Under the pieces are notes generated by a model. It was given only the letters and a program-made list of their open reading frames with translations, had not been told where the DNA came from and did no database searches. Below, in pieces: positions 23,233 to 25,408 of a stretch of DNA of 58,014 bases (within the stretch, counting starts at the first letter, position 1; each line of letters starts with the position of its first letter). The translations under genes and the position numbers were made by a program. This stretch comes from Gammaproteobacteria bacterium (GTDB lineage Bacteria > Pseudomonadota > Gammaproteobacteria > Steroidobacterales > Steroidobacteraceae). Location: assembly GCA_028870355.1 (NCBI GenBank), contig JAGWPU010000115.1, forward strand, positions 1 through 58,014. The letters run 5' to 3'.

Positions 23233-23892
23233 TCAGATCGAGATCCGCCGGACCCCGCCGTCCCCGGCGACCACGAGTTCGTCGGCGCCCCGCCGGGCGA
23301 ACAGGCCCACGGTGACGACGCCTGCGATCGCGTCGATGCCGGCTTCCAGCGCCAGCGGATCCTCGATGCGCAGATTGTGCACGTCGAGGATCACGTTGCC
23401 GTTGTCGGTCACGAAGCCCTGTCGCCATACCGGCTCGCCGCCGAGCGCGGCCACGCGCCGCGCGACGTAGGAGCGCGCCATCGGGATCACTTCGACCGGC
23501 AGCGGGAACGCGCCGAGCACATCGACCAGCTTCGCGTCGTCGATGATGCAGACGAACCGTGCCGATGCGGCCGCGACGATCTTCTCGCGGGTCAGCGCGC
23601 CGCCGCCGCCCTTGATCAGGGCGCCGTGCGGCGTCGCCTGATCGGCGCCGTCGACGTAGAGCGGGAGGTCGCCGGCGCTGTTCAGATCGAGTTCCGGAAT
23701 TCCGGTCTCTCGCAGGCGTGAGGAGGTTGCACTCGAGCTGGAGACCGCGCCGCGTACTCGCAGCCGGCTCGATCCGAGTGCCTGGATGAATTCGTCGACC
23801 GTCGAGCCGGTGCCGATCCCGAGGACCATGTCGTCCTCGACGTAACGCAGCGCCGCTTCGGCTGCCGCTCGCTTCTTCGCGCGTGTGTCCAC
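23233..23892 (-). CDS. rpiA: ribose-5-phosphate isomerase A
   Basis: This 219-residue RpiA interconverts ribose-5-phosphate and ribulose-5-phosphate. Substrate loops are present: [12 protein letters not shown] near residue 25, DGADQ near 80, [11 protein letters not shown] near 95-105 with the catalytic Glu, and [12 protein letters not shown]. The usual DGADE reads DGADQ here. Start is GTG 23892. A strong hairpin terminator belonging to the upstream micropeptide gene ends only 21 bases before this start, so read-through from that gene may supply some rpiA mRNA. Confidence 0.96.
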
Positions 23893-23913: not shown

Positions 23914-23943
23914 CGACTGTGCCCGCTTTCGCGGGCACAGTCG
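23914..23943 (-). terminator. strong intrinsic-type terminator after the micropeptide gene
   Basis: A perfect 13-base-pair stem (CGACTGTGCCCGC with its complement) closes a four-base loop, GAAA on the minus strand. It is followed by TTT. It sits 15 bases after the micropeptide stop and 21 bases before the rpiA start. Confidence 0.8.
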
Positions 23944-23958
23944 GTTTGATTCGAAGGC

Positions 23959-24024
23959 TTACTTCTTCTTGGCGGCCTTCTTCTTGGCTACCTTTTTCTT
24001 GGCCTTCTTCGCTTTCGCTGCCAT
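23959..24024 (-). CDS. 21-residue lysine/alanine-rich micropeptide (histone-H1-tail-like)
   Basis: The complete peptide begins MAAKAKKAKKKVAKKK and ends AAKKK; 12 of 21 residues are Lys, and the only other residue types are Ala, one Val and the initiating Met. It is far too short for usual gene calling, but its signals are unusually complete. There is a GGAG eight bases before ATG 24024, a promoter (TTGTAA-16-TATACT) ending 36 bases upstream of the ATG, and a perfect 13-bp terminator behind it. It resembles the repetitive tails of bacterial histone-H1-like proteins. A nucleic-acid or polyanion-binding role is inferred from charge alone. It is unrelated to its neighbours, the EVE gene and rpiA. 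Confidence 0.75.
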   Translation of the reverse strand: MAAKAKKAKKKVAKKKAAKKK

Positions 24025-24060
24025 GTTGAAAACTCCGTTGTCGGGTTAGTCCGGGGACCG

Positions 24061-24088
24061 AGTATATACACGAATCATCAAATTACAA
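24061..24088 (-). promoter_or_regulatory. promoter of the lysine-rich micropeptide gene
   Basis: On the minus strand TTGTAA, a 16-base spacer and TATACT lie in a conspicuously AT-rich patch (about 24060-24100), unlike the GC-rich surroundings. A start near 24054 gives a leader of about 30 bases with a GGAG site. Confidence 0.65.
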
Positions 24089-24136
24089 GCAATACGTCAC
24101 CTCGATCCCTCACGGATGTGGTAGCCGTGCTGGTGT

Positions 24137-24601
24137 TCATTCGAGCGAGAGGATGAAGTCCCACTGCGTCTTCGTCACCGGCGTCACCGACAATCGGTTG
24201 CCGCGTCTCAGGATCATGAGCTCCCGGAGTTCGCCGCGCGCGTGCGAACGCAGCTCCTGCAGCGTGATCACCCGATCGAGCTTGCGCACGAGGCGCACGT
24301 CGACGACGTACCAGCGCGGCGCGTCCGGCGTGCCGATCGGATCGTAGTGGGCGTTCTGCGGATCGAACGCGGTCGGGTCGGGGTACGCCTCGCGGGCCAC
24401 CTCGACGATGCCGACGATGCCGGGCTCGGCGCAGCCGGAGTGATAGAAGAACGCCCGGTCGCCCTTGCGAAACTCGTCGCGCAGCATGTTGCGCGCCTGG
24501 AAGTTGCGCACGCCGTCCCAGGCAGTGACCTTGCGGGGCTGAACGGCGAGGTCGTCGATCCCGAAGGTCTCGGGCTCGGATTTCATCAGCCAGTGATTCA
24601 T
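24137..24601 (-). CDS. EVE-domain protein (THYN1-like)
   Basis: This 154-residue single-domain EVE protein, related to human thymocyte nuclear protein 1, has the diagnostic N-terminus HWLMKSEP, then WDGVRNFQARNMLRDEFRKGDRAFFYHS and the basic C-terminal block LRRGNRLSVTPVT. The EVE fold belongs to the PUA/YTH group and is thought to bind modified bases. The start ATG 24601 overlaps the fau stop (ATGA), so the 6S-fau-EVE order forms one transcription unit, an arrangement common in gammaproteobacteria. Confidence 0.93.
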   Translation of the reverse strand: MNHWLMKSEPETFGIDDLAVQPRKVTAWDGVRNFQARNMLRDEFRKGDRAFFYHSGCAEPGIVGIVEVAREAYPDPTAFDPQNAHYDPIGTPDAPRWYVVDVRLVRKLDRVITLQELRSHARGELRELMILRRGNRLSVTPVTKTQWDFILSLE

Positions 24602-25194: not shown

Positions 25195-25221
25195 CGTCTC
25201 GTGGTCGTGGAATGGATGGCG

Positions 25222-25408
25222 CCACCCGCCTGTGCCGTCTTGGACCGTTGCTCCCGACCTGAGCAACAGGTGGGACCGACTGCGGCAATTAAGGCTTTCC
25301 GCTCGGGGCGGACTTGCACAATGTTGCCAGCAAGACTCAAGTCCCTGGGGTTTACAAATTAGGGTCGAGAGGTAACCCGATCCGCATCGAACACCGCAGG
25401 CGGCGCCA
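25222..25408 (-). ncRNA. ssrS: 6S RNA
   Basis: It lies on the minus strand between zapA and fau, the conserved position. The ends pair (CCGCCTG near 25403-25397 with CAGGCGG near 25232-25226), forming the closing stem. The internal 3' part contains the conserved sequence AAGCCTTAA found in enterobacterial 6S RNA, preceded by a stem like the E. coli one. Length is about 187 bases. 6S RNA mimics an open promoter and sequesters sigma70 RNA polymerase in stationary phase. Ends are estimated to within about ten bases. Confidence 0.88.

Follow-up and report, generated by a model that had tools for sequence, protein, structure and literature searches.

Layout of the rpiA Locus and its Promoter and Leader Signals

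The window, that is, the whole stretch of 58,014 nucleotides analyzed from a member of the Steroidobacteraceae (contig JAGWPU010000115.1), carries a very short gene for a lysine-rich peptide, named here micro-H1, immediately upstream of rpiA. The locus comprises the following features:

24137..24601, minus strand: gene for an EVE-domain protein, the upstream neighbor (PF01878, 182.5 bits)
24080..24092, minus strand: -35 region TTGCTTGTAATTT, conserved in the family and including TTGTAA
24061..24070, minus strand: -10 region TGTATATACT, with TATACT at 24061-24066 (promoter scan and family pattern)
24045..24053, minus strand: conserved leader motif CGGACTAAC, located 5-7 nt 3' of the -10 region (family pattern)
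24033..24036, minus strand: ribosome binding site GGAG, eight bases 5' of ATG (sequence; aligned in relatives)
23959..24024, minus strand: micro-H1 frame MAAKAKKAKKKVAKKKAAKKK, 21 aa plus TAA (sequence and family conservation)
23914..23943, minus strand: perfect 13-bp hairpin with a 4-nt GAAA loop, terminator-like with a T-poor tail (stem scan and alignment)
23233..23892, minus strand: rpiA, encoding ribose-5-phosphate isomerase A (PF06026, 189.2 bits)

The start of rpiA lies 21 nt past the hairpin. The EVE-domain gene is retained next to the micro-H1 slot in most loci of the order that are long enough to reach there, and a gene for 5-formyltetrahydrofolate cyclo-ligase (PF01812) is found farther upstream. 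A 6S RNA gene (25219-25405, minus strand; RF00013, 67.7 bits) overlaps the upstream edge of the cyclo-ligase frame.

The first-pass annotation of this DNA had described a promoter TTGTAA-16-TATACT and, further on, GGAG eight bases before an ATG that opens a Lys/Ala frame closed by TAA, and all of these are in place. The sigma-70-like promoter occurs at 24088-24061 of the minus strand (1 site vs. 0.2 expected in shuffled sequences) and is conserved in the family: in the 13-nt TTGCTTGTAATTT block 5' of the -10 region, conservation across 114 distinct family sequences is 82-98% at 11 positions and 60-74% at the other two. The -10 region and the CGGAYTAAC element were set by the search pattern, and the 100% conservation of the former is therefore by construction; in genomes without the exact motif, slightly altered versions of both elements occupy the corresponding positions of the locus. 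A G+C-rich stretch, CGGTCCCCGG, is present 3' of the -10 region, and CGGACTAAC probably lies at the transcription start or just past it.

A Micro-gene Under Selection as a Protein

The 21 residues encoded by MAAKAKKAKKKVAKKKAAKKK are 12 Lys, 7 Ala, 1 Val, and 1 Met; since none is acidic, the charge of the peptide is about +12. An rpiA match was obtained in 59 of 60 genomes (own genome included), and 30 loci were then read upstream. Among the 23 loci of the same genus (own included), 22 extend upstream, and 21 of these have an intact 21-aa frame, the remaining one (L011) having a gap of N within the frame. Of the 20 sites per codon position compared in the 21 same-genus frames, 3 first, 4 second, and 14 third positions are variable, that is, 14/20 third positions against 7/40 first and second positions (Fisher p = 1.1e-4). 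A single locus (L029) supplies all seven first- and second-position sites, and its removal leaves 0, 0, and 13 in 20 loci. Compared with the window, synonymous and non-synonymous differences in the same-genus set amount to 108 and 5, in comparisons that are not independent of one another; a count of 63 to 0 was dropped as circular, the frames having been picked for an identical protein. As changes fall mostly at third codon positions, selection acts on the protein, and the micro-H1 frame is a conserved, real gene. Its signals and frame exceed chance, being conserved in the family with changes of the coding type.

Distribution in the Steroidobacteraceae

Of the 150 family genomes searched, 119 contain the pattern GTATATACT-N3-7-CGGAYTAAC, a count of the motif and not of the peptide, and none (0) contains its reversed control. 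Extended by one more base, the pattern occurs in 36 of 196 genomes of the order, namely in 36 of the 39 belonging to the same family and in 0 of the 157 others. A scan of named contigs gave at least 119 stretches with the motif; among the matches listed are Steroidobacter agaridevorans, two Peristeroidobacter species, and bins titled Steroidobacteraceae. Genome loci and named contigs, which derive partly from the same assemblies, make up 127 distinct places, and at 122 of these a Lys-rich frame lies within 60 nt of the promoter/leader motif. The 122 frames measure 14-30 aa, plus one of 61 aa, after correction of three that had first been read from an internal GTG and have an upstream ATG in each case; one frame of 19 residues (L047) is cut by the contig end. 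Asp and Glu are absent from 122/122 frames, Lys accounts for 49-64% of frame residues, and Pro occurs in only two of the 122, as well as in some frames from genomes without the exact motif. The synteny with rpiA is maintained: the gene follows within 1.5 kb downstream in 115 of the 122, and the remaining seven lie within 360 nt of a sequence or contig end. Five motif places are without a Lys-rich frame, owing to the N gap in L011 and to contig ends in L111 and L136; the other two, L132 (Desulfosediminicola) and L138 (Bacillus), were taken as chance matches.

The exact motif is absent from 31 of the 150 family genomes, of which 20 have the peptide, 11 are not judgeable, and none (0) was shown to be without it. 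Four of them (G007, G008, G031, and G034) carry the peptide in spite of the missing motif. Among the other 27, the peptide is found in 16 genomes, at 17/17 rpiA loci with about 1.5 kb of upstream sequence; five have less than 100 nt upstream of rpiA and six have no rpiA match. Conserved Lys/Ala frames had been looked for upstream of rpiA in relatives, and both the peptide and its signals proved to be conserved, so that the stand-alone gene for an H1-tail-like peptide with signals of its own, put forward by the first-pass annotation, is supported by family comparison. A strict codon pattern matched only the own genome among 185 genomes of the class and is too strict to show distribution. Phage records contained no DNA similar to the locus.

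Several individual loci deserve mention. The 61-residue member (L181) has KAKAK/KVKTK repeats and the same promoter motif, and its length falls between those of the micro and long forms (see below). One genome (G141) has two rpiA matches (L302 and L316), each after its own, different Lys-rich short frame, which could be due to bin contamination. Two contigs titled Candidatus Planktophila lacus (L067) and Janthinobacterium lividum (L110) contain the motif, the same 22-aa peptide, and rpiA; these bin titles are probably wrong. Eight metagenome contigs (L013, L015, L017, L020, L038, L039, L300, and L312) end within roughly 200 nt of the micro-H1 element, and L015 and L017 start at the identical leader base. 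Assembly may fork where co-occurring species have near-identical copies of the element, and the gene would then be hidden as well.

Long H1-Like Proteins in the Same Slot of Other Families

Other families of the order were sampled through 20 loci (18 of 20 fetched stretches plus L028 and L031). In 14 of these 20 the slot 5' of rpiA is occupied by a complete H1-like open reading frame of K/R/A repeats, 75-201 aa long, a finding new relative to the first-pass annotation. Two further loci (L028 and L215) show a Lys/Arg-rich frame in the slot that is cut by the contig end, in L216 the sequence stops before the slot can be judged, and three of the 20 (L219, L220, and L224) have neither the short nor the long form. 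The long Lys-repeat frame of L227 changes its make-up near the C-terminus, as after a frameshift in the repeat.

A comparable frame was found at 0 of 60 rpiA loci outside the order, which are mostly best-scoring rpiA matches and no random draw, the count being limited to frames that start with ATG, span 12 aa or more, and exceed 30% Lys. The sole Lys-rich frame outside the order (12 residues, 33% Lys, 709 nt from rpiA) was taken as chance. Within this sample, an H1-like gene paired with rpiA is a trait of the order, the family of the window having the tail-only form, and the micro-H1 peptide is by its position a minimal counterpart of bacterial H1-like proteins. The case for kinship of the short with the long forms is one of position and composition, since Lys/Ala repeats can arise independently and give no meaningful alignment. 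In an rpiA tree of 50 rows neither the family nor the outgroup forms one clade, and the tree gives no direction for the length change.

In database searches, the peptide had no hits among Pfam and NCBIfam models (E 0.01) or PDB sequences (E 1). Four long counterparts were tested: the one from family f2 stays below the cut-offs of HC2 (37.4 of 40 bits) and NF038053 (20.1 of 80 bits), and the other three match neither Pfam nor NCBIfam. A second H1-like gene was sought in the own genome (92% complete) with PF07382, with no match at E 1, using a model that discriminates poorly (sub-cut-off signal in 4 of 14 control genomes); in the same genome the codon pattern Lys3-x2-Lys3 occurs at the micro-H1 gene only. 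No report of the peptide or its gene was found in the literature searched, which leaves subscription journals mostly outside its coverage.

The Hairpin between Micro-H1 and rpiA

The perfect 13-bp terminator of the first-pass annotation stands as a structure, with its 13-bp stem and 4-nt loop, and is less secure as a terminator of this strand: the minus-strand tail TTTCTGAGGA is T-poor, and the terminator scan listed the hairpin as a plus-strand site only (1 vs. 0.6 expected). A perfect stem of at least 7 bp is present in 115/115 intervals between the stop codon and rpiA. Measured from the best hairpin, the stop is 5-77 nt and rpiA 10-244 nt away; this spread mixes hairpin types, as the stop is closely followed in some loci by another, dissimilar hairpin. 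The window's own type occurs in 71 of the 115 loci, at 18-79 nt from the stop and 12-246 nt from rpiA. In the 115 relatives, the 10 nt past the best hairpin include 4-5 T in most (68), fewer (1-3 T) in 38, and more (6-8 T) in 9. The hairpin was also considered as a dispersed repeat and rejected as such, its core pattern occurring at only two places in the own genome (the locus and one other).

Sixteen loci, 15 of them from the same genus and with the window's own sequence entered twice, were aligned and folded, which gave 23 predicted pairs. Thirteen of them form the hairpin, including one changed on both sides (GC in eight, AU in eight); the remaining ten are weak, with a two-sided change at a single pair, in 2 sequences. 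The transcript folds more stably than shuffled sequences (z = -5.74), chiefly through the hairpin, and has no Rfam match at the gathering threshold.

Proposed Role and Alternative Explanations

The reading that we favor, and hold to be moderately probable, is that this conserved micro-gene encodes a minimal, tail-only counterpart of H1, has its own promoter and partial termination, and yields a disordered polycation whose target is nucleic acid, foremost the DNA of the nucleoid. The gene would be transcribed from its own promoter, its expression and expression level being inferred. The hairpin would probably stop part of this transcription and let the remainder read through into rpiA, a view taken because rpiA has almost no promoter room after the hairpin; rpiA thus probably depends on read-through. 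The peptide itself would most likely be a small disordered polycation that neutralizes and loosely compacts nucleic acid. DNA is the leading candidate ligand because the slot of the peptide is that of long H1-like repeat proteins, and the tail of AlgP (see below) is a precedent. If bulk positive charge is what counts, relatives would be expected to vary the length of the peptide and retain its composition, and they do.

As an alternative, the frame could be a leader peptide regulating rpiA by transcription attenuation, as might be suggested by a short frame rich in one amino acid, by the little promoter room before rpiA, and by a hairpin between the two genes at every locus compared. This is quite improbable: the close coupling of leader, antiterminator, and terminator is lacking, given how far the distance from stop to hairpin varies even for the window's own type; no helix that would compete with the hairpin is predicted from the folded alignment; long proteins occupy the slot in sister families; and Lys is not known to be linked to ribose-5-phosphate isomerase. 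That the transcript is a small RNA with an incidental frame is the remotest of the explanations considered. Strong conservation of leader and hairpin and the stability of the fold would suit it, but changes are mainly at third positions with the protein kept, the 10 of 23 pairs outside the hairpin are weak, and no Rfam family was matched at the gathering threshold.

The other two alternatives accept the peptide and assign it a different partner. A micro-protein associated with the ribosome or rRNA, like bTHX or eL41, would agree in size and charge, in the presence of the peptide in the family wherever this is judgeable, and in the G+C-rich CGGTCCCCGG, since a G+C-rich stretch after the -10 region is a feature of growth-rate controlled promoters. 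A drift in length from 14 to 61 residues is unlike a peptide fitted in an rRNA pocket, and repeat proteins of 75-201 aa fill the slot in sister families; together with the lack of a PDB match, which alone is not decisive on ribosome binding, these points make the ribosomal role rather unlikely. Binding to polyphosphate or another non-nucleic-acid polyanion, by which the peptide would help to condense or place granules as AlgP does, is also unlikely. In its favor, the H1-like AlgP is found on polyphosphate granules and polycationic peptides condense with polyphosphate, as far as the part of that report consulted goes (PMC9239181); against it, the N-terminal helical domain that the same part describes for AlgP is absent from the peptide, and the micro-H1 neighborhood gives no pointer to polyphosphate.

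Returning to the tail-only H1 counterpart, a bolder and more tentative proposal is that the only H1-like chromatin protein of the family is a free histone-tail peptide, mostly of 15-26 residues, where sister families have 75-201, its sole status having been checked in the own genome alone (92% complete). If true, nothing but bulk positive charge would matter, leaving the peptide free to vary in length, and it would be, to our knowledge, the smallest chromosomal architectural protein.

Genes so short and repetitive tend to be missed by gene finders and masked in similarity searches; the micro-H1 gene was nonetheless found in the Steroidobacteraceae wherever the locus could be judged. Its product appears to be a chromatin-type protein at its smallest. 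Lengths at this one genomic slot run naturally from 14 to about 200 residues, a series in which to ask what amount of positive charge is required of a chromatin-type protein and whether a tail by itself is sufficient.

Comparison with Known Systems

The very small ribosomal proteins bTHX and eL41 have about 25 residues and are strongly basic. Micro-H1 is of comparable size and charge and differs from them in its Lys/Ala make-up, its variable length, and the absence of a PDB match at E 1.

The C-terminal tails of AlgP and PhaF of Pseudomonas are closer in composition, being Lys/Ala-rich, predicted to be disordered, and similar to H1 tails. According to the part of the report consulted, peptides derived from AlgP's Lys/Ala-rich, H1-like tail are said to bind DNA, polycationic peptides and polyphosphate form condensates, and AlgP associates with polyphosphate granules, is needed for their even spacing, and has in addition an N-terminal helical domain (PMC9239181). 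Those tails consist of KPAA repeats and are attached to an N-terminal domain, whereas micro-H1 is a free peptide in which Pro is rare.

The HC2-type H1-like proteins (PF07382, chlamydial Hc2; NF038053, hist_H1_lk_Burk) are Lys-rich and vary in size by repeat number; chlamydial Hc2 ranges from 165 to 237 aa through Lys-rich pentamers, as stated in the part of the source consulted (PMC2848022). Micro-H1 differs from this type in that it scores above no family-model cut-off, is about ten times shorter, without the length and the many tandem repeats of Hc2, and has an rpiA neighborhood that, among the loci examined, is restricted to its order. It shares with the HC2 type a Lys/Ala-rich, low-complexity composition without acidic residues, and its slot is that of recognizable long H1-like repeat proteins.
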